Shown here: in pieces, positions 2,877 through 59,069 of the stretch | Numbering within the stretch: the first letter of the stretch is position 1 | Layout: each line of letters opens with the position of its first letter | Assembly: GCF_015864945.1 (NCBI RefSeq) | Contig: NZ_JADYWF010000001.1 | Span: forward strand, 124,378-188,377 | Length of the DNA: 64,000 nucleotides | Reading direction: 5' to 3' | Origin: Salinibacterium sp. NG253 | GTDB taxonomy: Bacteria; Actinomycetota; Actinomycetes; Actinomycetales; Microbacteriaceae | The notes under the pieces: model-generated | Seen by the model: the letters and a program-made list of their open reading frames with translations, nothing else | Databases searched by the model: none | What the model was told of the DNA's origin: nothing | Made by a program: the position numbers and the translations under genes

Positions 2877-3011
2877 CCCTTCGCGAGCACTGAGTGTGCG
2901 GCAAGGCCGCTAATTGCCAGAACACTTTCCGACACGCGGCCTGTTGTGCATCCGTGTGGGGTGCTCTCCGCATACTCTCAACAAAAGAAATACATACTGA
3001 GCATAACTTTA

Positions 3012-3028
3012 AACCTCAAGTCGAGGTT
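3012..3028. promoter_or_regulatory. Inverted repeat in the ftsZ leader
   Basis: AACCTC, 5-base loop AAGTC, GAGGTT: a perfect 6-bp dyad about 25 bases before the ftsZ GTG, inside a 177-base leader that separates ftsZ from ftsQ. It is followed by a GGAGG ribosome site at 3042-3046. It may be a protein-binding site or an RNA hairpin; there is no T-run, so it is not an intrinsic terminator. The long leader suggests ftsZ has its own promoter. Confidence 0.55.
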
Positions 3029-3053
3029 GATAGTTTCCAGTGGAGGCCGAAAA

Positions 3054-4211
3054 GTGACATCAAACCAGAACTACCTCGCAGTCATCAAGGTAGTCGGCAT
3101 CGGTGGCGGTGGCGTGAACGCTGTCAACCGGATGATCGAGCTCGGCCTGCGAGGCGTCGAGTTTATTGCGATCAATACCGACGCCCAGGCGCTGCTCATG
3201 AGCGATGCAGACGTCAAGCTTGACGTCGGTCGCGAACTCACGCGCGGACTTGGAGCCGGCGCCGATCCTGAGGTTGGCCGTCGTGCTGCCGAAGATCACG
3301 CCGAAGAGATCGAAGAGGCGCTTGCGGGCGCCGACATGGTCTTTGTTACCGCTGGTGAGGGTGGTGGAACGGGCACCGGTGGTGCTCCCGTCGTCGCCCG
3401 CATCGCTAAGTCGATTGGCGCACTCACGATTGGTGTTGTCACGAAGCCGTTCGGCTTCGAGGGCAAGCGCCGTTCGTCTCAGGCGGAGATCGGAGTGGAG
3501 ACTCTCAAAAATGAGGTTGACACCCTCATCGTCGTTCCCAACGACCGCCTTCTCGAGATCAGCGATCGCGGCATCAGCATGCTCGAAGCGTTCTCAACCG
3601 CCGACCAGGTTCTTCTTGCCGGCGTTCAAGGCATCACAGACCTCATTACGACCCCTGGTCTGATCAACCTCGACTTCGCCGACGTCAAGTCGGTCATGCA
3701 GGGTGCCGGTTCCGCACTGATGGGTATTGGCTCATCACGCGGGGCCGACCGGGCCATAAAAGCGGCAGAACTTGCTGTGGCATCACCGCTGCTTGAAGCC
3801 AGCATCGATGGCGCGCATGGAGTGCTGCTGTCGATCCAGGGTGGATCAAACCTCGGTATCTTCGAGATCAACGACGCCGCTCGCCTCGTTCAAGAAGCTG
3901 TTCACCGCGAGGCCAACATCATCTTCGGTGCCGTCATTGACGACACTCTGGGTGACGAGGTTCGTGTCACAGTGATCGCTGCTGGCTTCGACGGTGGGGA
4001 ACCTTCCGCCAAGCCTGTTGAGGGTCGCCGCACCAACTACGTTGTTCCTGAGCCCCCGGCTGAGCACATCGCAGCAGAGGAAAAGACGCCGAGCAAAGAC
4101 ACCGATTGGAAGTCGCAGCCGAGCGCAGTTCCCGCAACACCGATCGACCGCAGTTTCGATGACGACGACGAGAACGACAACGATCTCGACGTTCCTGACT
4201 TCCTGAAATAG
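3054..4211 (+). CDS. ftsZ: Cell division GTPase FtsZ
   Basis: Tubulin-like GTPase that forms the Z-ring. The start is the GTG at 3054, preceded by GGAGG at 3042-3046, giving 385 residues. Visible motifs are [11 protein letters not shown] near residues 17-27, the tubulin signature [13 protein letters not shown] near residue 100, and the T7-loop segment [11 protein letters not shown]. An acidic linker of Asp/Glu/Asn follows, then the conserved C-terminal tail DVPDFLK, which in this phylum binds SepF and membrane tethers. sepF lies two genes downstream. Confidence 0.98.
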
Positions 4212-4216
4212 GCGCG

Positions 4217-4903
4217 ATGGTCGACCTGACCCCGTTAGGCGAACGACTCGCAGAGGTCGACGACAGGATCGCGGATGCCGCACGCTCGGCATCCCGCGAC
4301 CTGTCGTCGATTACGCGTATCGTGATCACCAAATTCCATCCGGCGAGCCTCGTTCGAGAGCTGCACGGATTGGGCGTTCGCGACGTCGGTGAGAATCGTC
4401 ACCAAGAAGCGCAACCCAAAGCGGCCGAGTTGGCTGACCTTGATTTGCACTGGAACTTTGTCGGTCAGTTGCAGAGCAAGAAAGCACGTCAAGTGCGCGC
4501 GTACTGCCAAGCGGTGCATTCTGTGGATCGCGATTCCTTGATCACCGCGCTCGCCAGCGACGACGCCGAAAGCGCGCTTGATGTTTTCGTCCAGGTCAAC
4601 CTCACGGACGATTCCGGTCGCGGTGGGGTAGTGCCAGCCGAACTTGAAGGCTTTGCTGACCGAGTAGCGGCGGCGCCTGGGCTGCGGCTCCGTGGCCTCA
4701 TGGGTGTCGCGCCACTAGACGGCGACCCGAAGCCTGCCTTCGCCGCTCTGCGGGGTCTGTCCGAGCGCGTCCAGCTGAACCATCCAGAGGCCGCAGCGCT
4801 GTCTATGGGCATGTCAGGAGACTTCGCCGAGGCTATTGCTGAAGGCGCGACACACCTACGAATTGGCACGGCAATCACGGGAAAACGACCCGACCATGGT
4901 TAA
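4217..4903 (+). CDS. YggS/PROSC-type pyridoxal-phosphate homeostasis protein
   Basis: PLP-binding, single-domain TIM-barrel protein of the alanine-racemase fold, 228 residues, of the YggS/YlmE/PipY family. These proteins buffer free pyridoxal phosphate rather than catalyse racemisation. The PLP lysine is in ITKFHP (residues 37-42), with the family signatures GENRHQEAQPK, HWNFVGQLQSKK and LSMGMSGDFAEAI, and the phosphate-binding HLRIGTAI near the C-terminus. It sits six bases after ftsZ and just before sepF, the conserved actinobacterial position. Confidence 0.93.
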   Translation: MVDLTPLGERLAEVDDRIADAARSASRDLSSITRIVITKFHPASLVRELHGLGVRDVGENRHQEAQPKAAELADLDLHWNFVGQLQSKKARQVRAYCQAVHSVDRDSLITALASDDAESALDVFVQVNLTDDSGRGGVVPAELEGFADRVAAAPGLRLRGLMGVAPLDGDPKPAFAALRGLSERVQLNHPEAAALSMGMSGDFAEAIAEGATHLRIGTAITGKRPDHG

Positions 4904-38644: not shown

Positions 38645-38868
38645 GATCTCTCCCCGGTTAGGTGGCGTGACTCAAGGTTACGGCTTCGCTGGTCATCGTG
38701 CGGTTAAACGGTGCAGAATCTGAGCGCTACCTGAGCAAAAGGTGAAGAATCAGCTCGCTCGAGCATTGTGAGCGTACCGTGAACATCGAACGAGTTATTG
38801 GCGCTAACCAACCGCCAGAGCGAATCCGTCAACCGGCGAAGCTCACGATCGTTTAGCAAGGAGCTAGC

Positions 38869-50052: not shown

Positions 50053-50277
50053 GACTGATGCTCCCAGAAGATCTAGACCGCGCGGATGATGACCGCGAGC
50101 GTCGCCGATACTAGCGGATAGGTCTATGACAGCTTCATAGAAAAGGTCTTCGCATTGCGCGGCGCGACCACAATCCCGTCTACTCCCGTTCACCTAGGGT
50201 TCACGCCACTGCCCGAGACTGCGCACGTCCGTTCTCCCGGCCGGGCACTTTCATTCCAGCCTCGAAAGGGCACTCCC

Positions 50278-53200
50278 ATGCGCAGACGGCCCCTTGCCGC
50301 CCTCCTCACTTCTTTGGCTCTCGCAGCGCCGCTAGTGATAACGTCCGCTGGCCTCGCGACCACCGTGGCCAACGCTGCTGAACTGCCGAGCATCCTCATC
50401 AACGAAGTCGAGTCGAACGGTGATGAATTCGACTGGGTCGAGCTTCTTAACACTGGAGCAGCCGCGGTGGATGTCTCTGGCTGGATCATGAAAGACGACA
50501 ACGACTCCCGCACGCTGACCCTTCCTGCGGGCTCGACGATAGCTCCGGGGGAGTACTTCGTCGTCGACGTTAACGACGACGCCATCGACGGCAACTTCGG
50601 ACTCGGCGGCACGGACATGGCCCGTGTCTATCTGGCTGACGGTGCGACCCTCGTCGCGTCCTACGAGTGGGATGGCCACGCTTCCGTCACCTACGGTCGC
50701 TGCGCGAACGGGCTGGGGGAGTTCCGCGACACCGTGGCTTCGACGAAGGGCGCGGCCAACGCCTGCGAGGTTACCGCCGAGGCAGCAGTCCGCATCAATG
50801 AAGTCGAGTCAAGCGCTGCAGAAGACGACTGGATCGAACTCACCAACATCTCTGACTTTACTGTCGACGTCTCAGGGCTGGTGCTCAAGGATGACAACGA
50901 CAGCCGCACCGACGCAATCCCGAGCGGGACGACGATCGAACCAGGCGCCTTCTTTGCCTTCGAGCCATCGTTCGGCTTGGGCGGTGCAGATGTCGCGCGT
51001 GTCTTCGAAGTCGACGGTACGACCGTGATCGACAGCTACGGCTGGTCGGCACATGCGAGCACGAGTTACGGCCGCTGCCCTGATGGGATTGGCGAGTTCG
51101 CAACAACGAACACCACGACCAAGGGCGCCGCCAACGATTGTGTTGCCGCTGAGCTCCCGAATGTTCGCATCAACGAAATTGAGTCAAACGGCGACGCGAC
51201 AGATTGGGTCGAGCTCTTCAATAGTGGCAGCAGTGCTGTCGACATCTCCGGCTGGATCGTGCAAGACAACGACGATAGTCATGTCGCAGCTATTCCGCTT
51301 GGCACTTCGATCGCGGCTGGCGACTACTACGTCTTTGACCAGCCCGCTTTGAGCTTCGGGCTTGGCTCAGACGACTCCGTGCGCGTGTTCGCTGCGGACG
51401 GCTTCACGCTTATTGATTCACGCAGCTGGAGCGGTCACTCGGCGACGACGCTCGGCGTCTGCGGGTCCGGCTTTGGCGATACGACTAGCTCGACTAAGGG
51501 CTCTGCGAACGATTGTAGTGCGCCGATCCGCATCAACGAGGTCGAATCGAACGGGGACACGAGCGACTGGGTCGAACTGAAAAACAACGGCTCCGATGCA
51601 GTGGATGTCTCGGGCTTCGTTCTCAAGGACGACAACGACTCGCACGCCCTCACGATCGATGCCGGCTCAACAATTGCCGCTGGCAACTACCTCGTTGTTG
51701 AGACGGATGCTGAGTTTGGACTCGGCGGAGCAGACTCCGCGCGGCTCTTCAGCGCTGACGGCGTGACGCTGGTTGACGGCTACGAATGGACTGCGCACGC
51801 GGCAACAACCTACGCACGGTGCCCCGATGGAACCGGTGACTTCGAGACCTCGAAGGCCTCGACTAGGGGCGCAGCAAACAGCTGTGTCGGCGAACTCGAA
51901 ACCTCGCCGTGGCCCGGTGGGTCTGCGATCTCCACAGTCAACGAGATGGACGAATTTAGCGACAACATGAGTGGCCTCGCGTTTGAGTCCGCCACCACGG
52001 GTGATGTGCTGTGGGCGGCCAAGAATGGGCCCGGAGCACTCTACAAGCTCGTCTTTGACGGAACCAACTGGGTGCCCGAGACGTCGAACTCCTGGAACGA
52101 CGGAAAGCTGCTGCACTATGCCAGTGGCACCGGTGACGTGGATGCCGAAGGTGTGGCGTTGACATCGGCAGGAGCATCCGGGGGAGTCTTCATCGCGAGC
52201 GAGCGGGATAACTCCAACAGTGGTGTCAGTCGTCCGACGATTCTTCGCTACGACGTGTCGGGCGCCGCATCCGAATTGACGGCAAGCCAGGAGTGGAATC
52301 TCACCGCTGACCTCCCGGTCATCGCTGCGAACTCGGGACTCGAGGGCATTGCTTGGATTCCCGACAGCTACCTCGTGGCCGAAGGCTTCGTCGATGAGAA
52401 CACAGGAACCCTCTACGACCCGAGCACTTATGCGGGCCACGGCGACGGACTGTTCTTCGTCGGCCTCGAGGCTAACGGAACGATTTACGCCTATGCGCTC
52501 GATCAGAGTTCAGGTTCGTTTGACCGTGTAGCGACAATCGAGAGTGGCTTCGTCAGTGTCATGGAGCTCGAGTTCGATCCCACGCTCGGTGCACTCTGGG
52601 CCATCTGCGACGACACCTGCGAAGGTCGAAGCGCGCTTCTCGAGATTGCCCAGACCGGTGCAACCAACGGCTCATTCGACGTCGCCACCGTCTTCGAACG
52701 CCCCACCGGGATGCCCAATCTCAACAACGAGGGCTTCGCTATCGTGCCGCAGTCAGAGTGTGTCTCTGGCTCGAAAGCGGTGTACTGGTCGGATGACTCG
52801 AACACCGACGGCATCGCGCTGCGGGCGGGCACCATCGACTGCACGGTGACGACGGACCCCACGGACCCCACGGATCCGACAGACCCAACAGACCCGACCG
52901 ATCCAGCCACGCCGACTGCACCGGTGGCTGTACCGGAGGCAAGCCTGATCGACGGAAATCGCGGTTCGGTCTCGGCCCCGCCGAGCGCTAGCCCGGGGGA
53001 AACCATCACGATCAACGTGGGCACGTCGCATGCGGGCAGTGTCGTGAACATCTGGATCTATTCCACGCCGACTCTGTTGGGATCGCCAACTGTCAGCGCC
53101 GCCGGAACTGTCTCAGCAACCATTCCTTCGACTCTCACACCGGGCCTCCACCGCTTGGTGGTGACCGCAGCGGATGGCTCAGTGATCGGTTGGGCGAACA

Positions 53201-53340
53201 TCACGATCACCGCACTCGAGTCTGGTTCGCTCGCGTTTACTGGTTCAGGATCAGCGTTGCCGATTCAGCTGTCGTTGATGCTGCTCGTCGCTGGCCTCTC
53301 GATGGTTATGATTCGTCGCCGCGAGAAGCTACTTAGCTAG
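50278..53340 (+). CDS. Cell-wall protein: four lamin-tail domains, phytase-like domain, LAFTG signal
   Basis: 1020 residues from ATG 50278. Signal peptide (residues 1-34), then four lamin-tail (LTD) domains starting near 50395, 50790, 51165 and 51525, each with INEVESNGD..DWVEL, VDVSG and STKGAAN. A beta-propeller-like 'esterase-like activity of phytase' region covers about 540-855 (MSGLAFESATTGDVLWA, AEGVALTSAGASGG). A TDP x6 linker follows (52852-52905), then an Ig-like domain and a C-terminal sorting signal LAFTG (985-989), hydrophobic helix and RRREK tail. LAxTG is the class E sortase signal. Likely surface-anchored and acting on phosphate or nucleic-acid-like polymers; that is inference. 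Confidence 0.88.
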   Translation: MRRRPLAALLTSLALAAPLVITSAGLATTVANAAELPSILINEVESNGDEFDWVELLNTGAAAVDVSGWIMKDDNDSRTLTLPAGSTIAPGEYFVVDVNDDAIDGNFGLGGTDMARVYLADGATLVASYEWDGHASVTYGRCANGLGEFRDTVASTKGAANACEVTAEAAVRINEVESSAAEDDWIELTNISDFTVDVSGLVLKDDNDSRTDAIPSGTTIEPGAFFAFEPSFGLGGADVARVFEVDGTTVIDSYGWSAHASTSYGRCPDGIGEFATTNTTTKGAANDCVAAELPNVRINEIESNGDATDWVELFNSGSSAVDISGWIVQDNDDSHVAAIPLGTSIAAGDYYVFDQPALSFGLGSDDSVRVFAADGFTLIDSRSWSGHSATTLGVCGSGFGDTTSSTKGSANDCSAPIRINEVESNGDTSDWVELKNNGSDAVDVSGFVLKDDNDSHALTIDAGSTIAAGNYLVVETDAEFGLGGADSARLFSADGVTLVDGYEWTAHAATTYARCPDGTGDFETSKASTRGAANSCVGELETSPWPGGSAISTVNEMDEFSDNMSGLAFESATTGDVLWAAKNGPGALYKLVFDGTNWVPETSNSWNDGKLLHYASGTGDVDAEGVALTSAGASGGVFIASERDNSNSGVSRPTILRYDVSGAASELTASQEWNLTADLPVIAANSGLEGIAWIPDSYLVAEGFVDENTGTLYDPSTYAGHGDGLFFVGLEANGTIYAYALDQSSGSFDRVATIESGFVSVMELEFDPTLGALWAICDDTCEGRSALLEIAQTGATNGSFDVATVFERPTGMPNLNNEGFAIVPQSECVSGSKAVYWSDDSNTDGIALRAGTIDCTVTTDPTDPTDPTDPTDPTDPATPTAPVAVPEASLIDGNRGSVSAPPSASPGETITINVGTSHAGSVVNIWIYSTPTLLGSPTVSAAGTVSATIPSTLTPGLHRLVVTAADGSVIGWANITITALESGSLAFTGSGSALPIQLSLMLLVAGLSMVMIRRREKLLS
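52852..52905 (+). repeat. 9-bp tandem repeat coding a Thr-Asp-Pro linker
   Basis: Six units based on ACGGACCCC, giving (TDP)6 between the phytase-like and C-terminal domains. Prone to copy-number change. Confidence 0.8.
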
Positions 53341-57689: not shown

Positions 57690-57753
57690 GTATGGAGAGC
57701 GTCGGCAGTGAAGTGTGTCGACGCAATGTCGGACGAGGAAAGAAGGCCAAAGG

Positions 57754-58413
57754 ATGGGTGAGGGCAGGCATCACTCGCAAGCCGGTGACGTGCAGGGAGA
57801 GGCGCGGCCTTTTGACGTGTGGTCAATGCGCGCGAATCGACGGTTCTCTCTGCGTGATATCTACCAGATCACTCACGATGCCACTCTGACGTCTCGGTGC
57901 TTCCGCAAATTTCGAAAGACTGTGGGGGAGAAGCGCACCTCCCGAATTATGCTCGCGGTAACCGAAGTCAACGGCTGCGCCATTTGTGCTTACGGACACG
58001 CAAAGTTTGCACTGGATGCCGGAATCGATTCGAACGAGGTTCGCAATCTTCTCGGTGGCGTCACGCAAGGAGCGCCTGACCGGGAGCTCGCGGGGATCGG
58101 GTTCGCTCAACACTATGCGGATACCGAGGGGCATCCCGATGAGGATGCCTGGGATCAGCTGGTGCAACTCTATGGCCGCGAGGAGGCGCTCGGCGTTCTC
58201 GGCGCTACCCGAATGATGATGTGGGGGAATGCCGTCGGAATCCCTCTGAGTTCCTTGCGTGCGCGCCTGAAAGGCAGTCCACATCCTGGAAGTAGCGTGG
58301 CGTACGAGATGGGGACCATTCTCGGAGCGTGGGTCGTCGTGCCCGTTGCGGTCATTCGTGCGCTGTTCTCGCTAGCGAGACATCAGCCGCCGATAACCTT
58401 TCACCGCGGCTAG
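57754..58413 (+). CDS. AhpD-like carboxymuconolactone-decarboxylase-family protein
   Basis: 219 residues from ATG 57754 (GAAGG upstream; ATG 57826 also possible). The AhpD core has the redox signature EVNGCAICAYGHAK (E-x3-C-x2-C-x3-H), which is enzyme-like peroxidase or hydroperoxide chemistry. A C-terminal hydrophobic helix (about residues 192-209, ILGAWVVVPVAVIRALF) may anchor it. The CsoR/CstR-like operator upstream points to a thiol, sulfur or metal stress response, but no regulator gene is adjacent. Confidence 0.83.
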   Translation: MGEGRHHSQAGDVQGEARPFDVWSMRANRRFSLRDIYQITHDATLTSRCFRKFRKTVGEKRTSRIMLAVTEVNGCAICAYGHAKFALDAGIDSNEVRNLLGGVTQGAPDRELAGIGFAQHYADTEGHPDEDAWDQLVQLYGREEALGVLGATRMMMWGNAVGIPLSSLRARLKGSPHPGSSVAYEMGTILGAWVVVPVAVIRALFSLARHQPPITFHRG

Positions 58414-58427
58414 AGGTCTGGCTGGGG

Positions 58428-58446
58428 CGACGCCGGCGGGGCGTCG
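58428..58446 (+). terminator. Weak hairpin after the AhpD-like gene
   Basis: CGACGCC, loop of five bases, GGCGTCG. No T-run. Candidate terminator of the plus-strand transcript. Confidence 0.4.
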
Positions 58447-58493
58447 TGGTGAGAGGGAGCCGCTCAAGCGTGCTGGTGCTCCGAATTCAGGTA

Positions 58494-58521
58494 AGCTGAC
58501 ATAATGTGCATTATCGGATAC
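58494..58521. other. dif: Candidate chromosomal dif site (XerC/XerD)
   Basis: Read on the minus strand, the 28 bases contain CCGATAAT, a GC pair, then ACATTATGTCA, and end GCT; the arms give the perfect core ATAATG/CATTAT. It matches the actinobacterial dif consensus as I remember it (TTSRCCGATAAT, VN, then ACATTATGTCAAGT) at 23 of 28 positions. The mismatches lie in the outer four bases of the XerC arm and two in the XerD arm. It is intergenic between convergent genes, the usual placement. This would mark the replication terminus. Confidence 0.72.
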
Positions 58522-58551
58522 TAAACACGTCCCCGAGAGGGGCGGCAGAGG

Positions 58552-59034
58552 TCAGGACTGCAACGGCGGCAACGCAACGACCGTCACGGTCCAAGGCTGT
58601 TGGTTGTCGGTCGTCACTGCAATTGAGTAGCTGCCGTTGGCATCGATGTCCATCTCGTCCAGGTGGACTGCGTCATCTGAGTTCTCGCGACAGTCGTGAG
58701 AAGACTGTGCCACATCGCCGATCGACACTGTCATGCGGCCAGAGCCGACACAATCTGAATACACTGCGATTCGTCCCGTTGTGGGCACGAATGGCGACAC
58801 ATCGATAGAGCTGCCGGCATTGGTGCTCGTCGCCAAGACAGCTTCGCCCTCGGCGTCGAACGCCAGCAATTCTGGAGTTTCTGACATAACGAAATCTGTA
58901 GCCGTGTTTGTGGGGTTCGGCGAGTGAACTGCGACTTCGACGCCTGACTCTGGGGCGCCAGTGCACCCGGTCAACATCGCCACAACGGCGGCCGCAGCAG
59001 AAATAACGTAAAGCCAGCTGCGTACAGCGCTCAT
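58552..59034 (-). CDS. Hypothetical lipoprotein
   Basis: 160-residue secreted protein with signal peptide and lipobox MLTGC. Mature part is acidic and beta-rich, with a Cys pair (SDCVGSG and SHDCREN) that could form a disulfide. No domain recognised. It faces the candidate dif site with its 3' end. Confidence 0.78.
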   Translation of the reverse strand: MSAVRSWLYVISAAAAVVAMLTGCTGAPESGVEVAVHSPNPTNTATDFVMSETPELLAFDAEGEAVLATSTNAGSSIDVSPFVPTTGRIAVYSDCVGSGRMTVSIGDVAQSSHDCRENSDDAVHLDEMDIDANGSYSIAVTTDNQQPWTVTVVALPPLQS

Positions 59035-59069
59035 GACGCTCCCCCACCTGTACTCACGTCGTCACGACC

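Follow-up and report, generated by a model that had tools for sequence, protein, structure and literature searches.

Where are dimers of this chromosome resolved, and is that also the place where its replication ends? The question is raised by a 28-bp element at 58494-58521 of the window (the whole 64,000-nucleotide stretch analysed here, C1:124378-188377 of a draft genome of 2,973,865 bases in 9 contigs), which a sequence-only reading had proposed as a dif site and the predicted chromosome terminus. The first half of that proposal holds. The sequence is present at these positions, has the layout of dif, occurs once and lies where a strand-biased motif switches polarity, and 58494-58521 is almost certainly the chromosomal dif site. 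The finding is ordinary in kind; chromosomal dif sites are already well known. The second half of the proposal is a different matter, taken up below.

The site and its surroundings

The 28-mer GTATCCGATAATGCACATTATGTCAGCT, a predicted XerCD recombination site, is read on the minus strand. Its arms, GTATCCGATAA (arm 1, 58521-58511) and TTATGTCAGCT (arm 2, 58504-58494), are an imperfect inverted repeat about the 6-bp centre TGCACA (58510-58505). By position relative to E. coli dif, we take arm 1 to be of the XerC type and arm 2 of the XerD type. The complete CCGATAAT and ACATTATGTCA blocks reported by the sequence-only reading are there, around a 2-bp centre, GC. Counted by hand against the degenerate sequence TTCGCCGATAATVNACATTATGTCAAGT, which we take to be the actinobacterial consensus, the 28-mer matches at 23/28 positions, the same score as was originally given.

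A second comparison is with dif of Frankia alni, the original source of which is said to be Hendrickson and Lawrence in 2007. The two sequences match at 22/28 positions, 21 of them consecutive, and differ at six outer bases; the 28-bp layout, the single copy and a location roughly opposite oriC are likewise shared. (The F. alni sequence is an actinobacterial seed and is used in the form printed in the pertinent part of PMC3025954.) The 21-bp core corresponds to C1:182874-182894. Among 2.84 million 28-mers scanned (both strands of 1.42 Mb of the genome), this one alone reaches 22 matches to F. alni dif, and the runner-up has 19.

At a tolerance of at most three mismatches the dif pattern has a single match in the 2,973,865-base draft, whose 9 contigs may miss sequence, in agreement with the expectation of one best site. 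The pattern read backwards has no match in the whole draft at the same tolerance, and none of 100 shuffled versions of the window yields one. Searches of the open-access literature returned no paper combining 'Microbacteriaceae' with 'dif site', and a search for GGGGGAG together with FtsK gave nothing related, judged by title.

The site is held in a 138-bp intergenic gap (58414-58551) between convergent open reading frames, as had been described. On the left, 57715-58413 (+) codes for a carboxymuconolactone decarboxylase or AhpD-like protein that scores slightly below the curated cut-offs. On the right, 58552-59034 (-) codes for a small protein with a lipobox-like MLTGC (read by eye), for which NCBIfam and Pfam gave no match. 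A 100-residue open reading frame (58506-58808, +) in the mechanically generated list overlaps dif and is taken to be spurious. Farther to the left, 5 kb from dif, lies the gene (50155-53340, +) of a 1061-residue protein in which four lamin-tail-domain stretches and, below its cut-off, a sortase signal of the LAVTG type are found.

Polarity of GGGGGAG around dif

The strongest evidence for dif comes from motif polarity and is independent of the sequence of the site itself. Strand-biased octamers were chosen from 30 pieces of the genome (594 kb) away from the dif region; the most biased are CGGGGGAG (51 to 3) and TGGGGGAG (42 to 0). In a separate 344 kb around dif, GGGGGAG occurs 49 times on the plus strand and never on the minus strand to the left, and 55 times on the minus strand and never on the plus strand to the right, so that all 104 copies point toward dif. 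The last plus-strand copy starts at 57924 and the first minus-strand copy at 59039. This interval of 1.1 kb (57924-59039; C1:182301-183416) is the one best switch point, and dif lies inside it; the FtsK-orienting type of polarity switch that the sequence-only reading associated with a dif site is accordingly found.

Of the 1,947 heptamer pairs that occur 60 times or more, only that of GGGGGAG agrees fully. The runners-up (77/79 and 61/66) overlap GGGGGAG, and the next pair reaches 0.735. The other six heptamers composed of six G and one A are both rare and weak: where there are more than 12 copies the maximum is 17/25 (GGGGAGG), and further examples are GGGAGGG (12/22) and GGAGGGG (8/12). Convergence on dif extends to all five relatives analysed, in which 138 of 138 GGGGGAG copies conform. 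The switch intervals in these relatives are 1.1 kb (G082), 0.7 kb (G034), 2.5 kb (G079), 2.5 kb (G013) and 22 kb (G119, in which copies are sparse); five of the six genomes, this one included, have the switch within 0.7-2.6 kb.

GGGGGAG therefore has the properties by which KOPS and AIMS are recognized around dif: it is strand-biased, points to dif and switches there. By analogy with those systems it would be the sequence that FtsK reads in this organism. According to the relevant portions of PMC2830990 and PMC3219685, the AIMS (architecture-imparting) octamers G(A/T/C)GGGGGA and (T/C)GGGGGAG located dif in two Corynebacterium genomes. The same octamer family converges on dif here, where it was found without prior knowledge of the AIMS octamers. 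The same portions give 856 leading and 61 lagging copies of both octamers for the whole chromosome of C. aurimucosum, a measure not the same as the 104/104 within 344 kb reported here.

Other candidate motifs do not behave in this way. The E. coli KOPS GGGNAGGG occurs 29 against 15 times in the distal pieces, and its best switch near dif fits 16/22 copies and is not at dif. The octamers AAGAAGCT and CGTGCAGG, skewed in the distal set, have no switch at dif.

Xer recombinases, FtsK and a likely mechanism

A PF00589 search of the genome finds two full-length Xer-type recombinases, both of which pass the tyrosine recombinase subfamily model NF001399 of NCBIfam. It also finds one short integrase remnant, interrupted by a stop. 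The protein encoded at C1:9418 scores 323.2 with the XerD model (cut-off 329.6) and 299.5 with the XerC model, and that at C1:739265 scores 323.3 with the XerC model (cut-off 335.15) and 276.8 with the XerD model; XerD and XerC are told apart by the better of the two models, with scores 6 and 12 bits below the cut-offs. FtsK with a gamma domain above cut-off is encoded at C3:210064. The integrase remnant, a short match to the tyrosine integrase domain in which the stop is an internal TGA, lies at C1:2044030-2044188 (L006), 10 kb from the end of C1.

The E. coli system shares with this one the architecture of the site, the two recombinases, the FtsK gamma domain and a polar guiding motif; it differs in that 18/28 bases of dif are common to both and in that the E. 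coli KOPS has no switch at this dif. In the corresponding scheme, an odd number of crossovers would join sister chromosomes as a dimer. The septal FtsK translocase would track along the DNA, guided by the polar (T/C)GGGGGAG toward dif from both sides, and on reaching the two copies of dif would activate XerD by way of its gamma domain. XerC and XerD, bound to the two 11-bp arms, would then carry out strand exchange over the 6-bp centre, generating two monomers. Binding, recombination and activation by FtsK are here presumed to proceed as in E. coli and B. subtilis. What the sequence data show directly is a conserved site in single copy, genes encoding proteins like XerC and XerD and an FtsK with a gamma domain, and a motif polarity that converges on the site.

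Conservation of dif in the Microbacteriaceae

The site is widely shared in the family. At most three mismatches separate the pattern from a match in 102 of 120 family genomes (95 of the 109 near-complete ones), and the backward pattern has 0 among the family-genome matches listed. There is one match each in 93 of the 102 genomes and there are two to five in the other 9. The centre TGCACA is present in 71 of 101 primary sites (one genome, G041, was dropped from this count) and in none of 18 secondary sites. Eighteen of the 120 genomes are without a match at this tolerance, the single-contig genomes G009, G014, G015 and G030 included. Nine of these 18 do match when the centre of the pattern is left free, and some of them therefore have another centre. 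In the 25 matching genomes among 29 assembled as single contigs, dif and dnaA are separated by 0.37-0.50 of the genome length (median 0.47, calculated with rounded genome sizes), and in 22 of the 25 this distance is at least 0.40.

Conservation of neighbouring genes is uneven. In a genome of the same genus (G082), gene-to-dif distances are unchanged between +6.8 and -5.2 kb. In four others (G013, G034, G119 and G079), several genes from the right-hand side of the window, including the NUDIX, SDR and GDPD genes, have stayed on that side of dif, at distances of 0.3-12.4 kb. The left-hand neighbours (50-58.4 kb in the window) were not found near dif in these four genomes (E 1e-8; 35-40 kb either side of dif examined), with the exception of one weak SDR-gene match in G013.

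The sequence-only reading had also placed ftsZ about 55 kb away and had pointed to the dcw cluster being near the terminus in other actinobacteria; the distance is borne out, and so, within the family, is the closeness of ftsZ to dif. In the window, ftsZ (2946-4211, +) lies 54.3 kb from dif and reads toward it; the same orientation is found in all 69 genomes that have both on one contig, with distances of 23-357 kb (median 48 kb). The distances are bimodal: 42 genomes fall at 23-77 kb and 27 at 149-357 kb, and the range from 77 to 149 kb is empty. In 50/69 genomes dif has its 3' (XerD-type) end turned toward ftsZ. This end faces away in 18/27 genomes of the far group and in 1/42 of the near group, the one exception being G019, in which ftsZ is at 77 kb. 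The dif of the window, facing an ftsZ some 55 kb away, falls in the near group.

Could the site be something else?

Phages and plasmids that integrate by means of host XerCD offer another source of dif-like sequence, and 58494-58521 might be the attachment site, or a remnant, of such an element. Plasmids of related actinobacteria do carry dif-like sites, and the actinobacterial dif core is found in 11 IMG/VR contigs. Against this reading, the site is the sole one of its kind in the draft, the centre TGCACA is the most frequent one in primary sites and absent from secondary ones (71/101 against 0/18), the tested flanking genes lie equally far from dif in the same-genus genome, none of ten window proteins scanned is a phage or integrase protein, and a polar motif converges on the site. 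Taken with these observations, origin from an integrated element is very improbable. A chance match, or a regulatory palindrome between convergent genes, is less probable still: the arms do resemble an operator in being an imperfect inverted repeat, and the place is intergenic, but the shuffled windows contain no match, the sequence recurs in 102/120 family genomes and persists where left-hand gene neighbours have changed in four distant genera, and a scan of 58300-58700 (limited to the sigma-70 type) finds neither a promoter-like nor a terminator-like site that would give the gap such a function.

Dif-like sites on plasmids, in pairs and in viral contigs

Dif-like sites in which the arms are conserved but the 6-bp centre differs are found in a number of further stretches (L142-L146 and L150-L160) and in PLSDB plasmids. 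The centre TGTACC is present in five family genomes of four genera, and the contigs that carry it measure mostly 74-450 kb, one (that of L145) being 3.8 Mb long. A search of PLSDB gives 67 matching records at E <=10, with Gordonia (12), Arthrobacter (6) and Clavibacter (5) most often represented; the weak ones may be due to chance, and in 20 records the match covers 80% or more of the query. Examples are Clavibacter californiensis pCCa (38784-38812) and Gordonia pGKT1 and pGOR1. Among the PLSDB matches listed, 37/40 have no listed gene under the match. These sites look like plasmid dimer-resolution sites served by the XerCD of the host.

Four of seven genomes of genus g17 (G324, G254, G292 and G016) have a second, inverted dif-like site 48-49 bp from dif. 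The pairs lie at 4820/4869 (L147), 2530/2578 (L148), 6534/6583 (L149) and 5197/5246 (L161), and the second site has another centre. Xer-using phages have paired sites, of which these inverted pairs are reminiscent. The 11 IMG/VR viral contig stretches containing the actinobacterial dif core (L162-L172) might represent prophages adjacent to dif, or else elements that make use of it. Nine phage records also resemble the site; since none covers 80% of the query and the best E is 1, these are treated as chance matches.

Is dif the point of termination?

The site lies 1.62 Mb from dnaA in the 2.97-Mb draft. If all 9 contigs form one circle, dif splits the genome 54.5% / 45.5% from dnaA, with a right arm of 1.62 Mb and a left arm of 1.35 Mb, so that the expected position opposite oriC is approximately right. 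The expectation of a change in GC skew fared less evenly. The two arms are opposite in mean (-0.010 in 32 right-arm pieces, +0.018 in 13 left-arm pieces), but the skew does not switch at dif: 12/13 left-arm pieces are positive, as are 12/32 right-arm pieces, which therefore have the wrong sign, and within the 344 kb the cumulative skew peaks 144 kb from dif, at C1:327034. GC skew thus backs the existence of opposite arms and pins no point. As a locator of the terminus it is too weak and was rejected.

The claim that replication of this chromosome ends at the site goes beyond these data. The exact point of termination and dif are kept separate in the sections of PMC3025954 and PMC13342612 that bear on them. 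There is close to an even chance, if slightly less, that the site is dif and that forks usually meet elsewhere, which would make 'chromosome terminus' wrong in the strict sense. Apart from the distinction drawn in those sections, the GC-skew maximum at C1:327034 favours this reading, as does the longer right arm, on account of which forks advancing equally would converge on a point to the right of dif. What speaks against it is that the skew is small and noisy, with more than a third of right-arm pieces of the wrong sign. The identification of 58494-58521 as dif is common to both readings of termination.

The origin-side switch of motif polarity

KOPS and AIMS are also expected to switch back at oriC. 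In this genome GGGGGAG does not: it turns 49.0-53.3 kb upstream of dnaA (the stretch concerned is C1:1750493-1803791; L094, L095, L048 and L049). Within 80 kb upstream of dnaA, 21/21 copies fit the displaced switch and 7/21 fit a switch at dnaA; three copies at 91-149 kb upstream go against the trend. What we take to be parS-like sites (three, 2.6-5.8 kb upstream of dnaA) and DnaA boxes (three, 0.15-0.6 kb upstream) are found close to the gene.

The best-fitting origin-side switch lies 38-71 kb upstream of dnaA in 7/10 family genomes. These switch points result from fitting, and the numbers of agreeing copies are therefore upper bounds: a displaced switch fits 24/26 copies in G082, 26/29 in G079, 20/24 in G021, 20/20 in G028, 32/33 in G063 and 14/18 in G118, with G021 and G118 mixed in origin-side polarity. 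A switch at dnaA or within 11 kb of it fits 21/21 copies in G034, 9/9 in G119 and 8/9 in G100, the last two counts resting on few copies.

Inversion of a block flanking oriC, a conceivable cause of the displacement, is unsupported by comparison of this genome with G034. Most conserved genes of the stretch have the same order and strand in the two genomes, with a few weak off-diagonal matches, and the motifs are opposite. Genes that are collinear while motifs are opposed would imply that the strand of the motif has been rewritten by substitutions and not by inversion. GC skew in the origin-side stretch is small and favours neither reading, and C1:1780001-1800000 contains no tRNA genes. One tentative and rather doubtful interpretation is that the polarity of the FtsK-guiding motif in this family is a map of its own, anchored at dif and separate from the direction of the forks.

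Implications

The probable dimer-resolution site of this chromosome is fixed to 28 bp. The GGGGGAG switch locates dif sharply in six genomes, in one of which, that analysed here, GC skew is not strong enough for the purpose. Should the polarity of the motif indeed form a map separate from fork direction, it would be kept by selection on the process of segregation and not by strand-specific mutation. The mismatch on the origin side lends itself to a natural test: do polar motifs follow the direction of replication, or are they independently selected?
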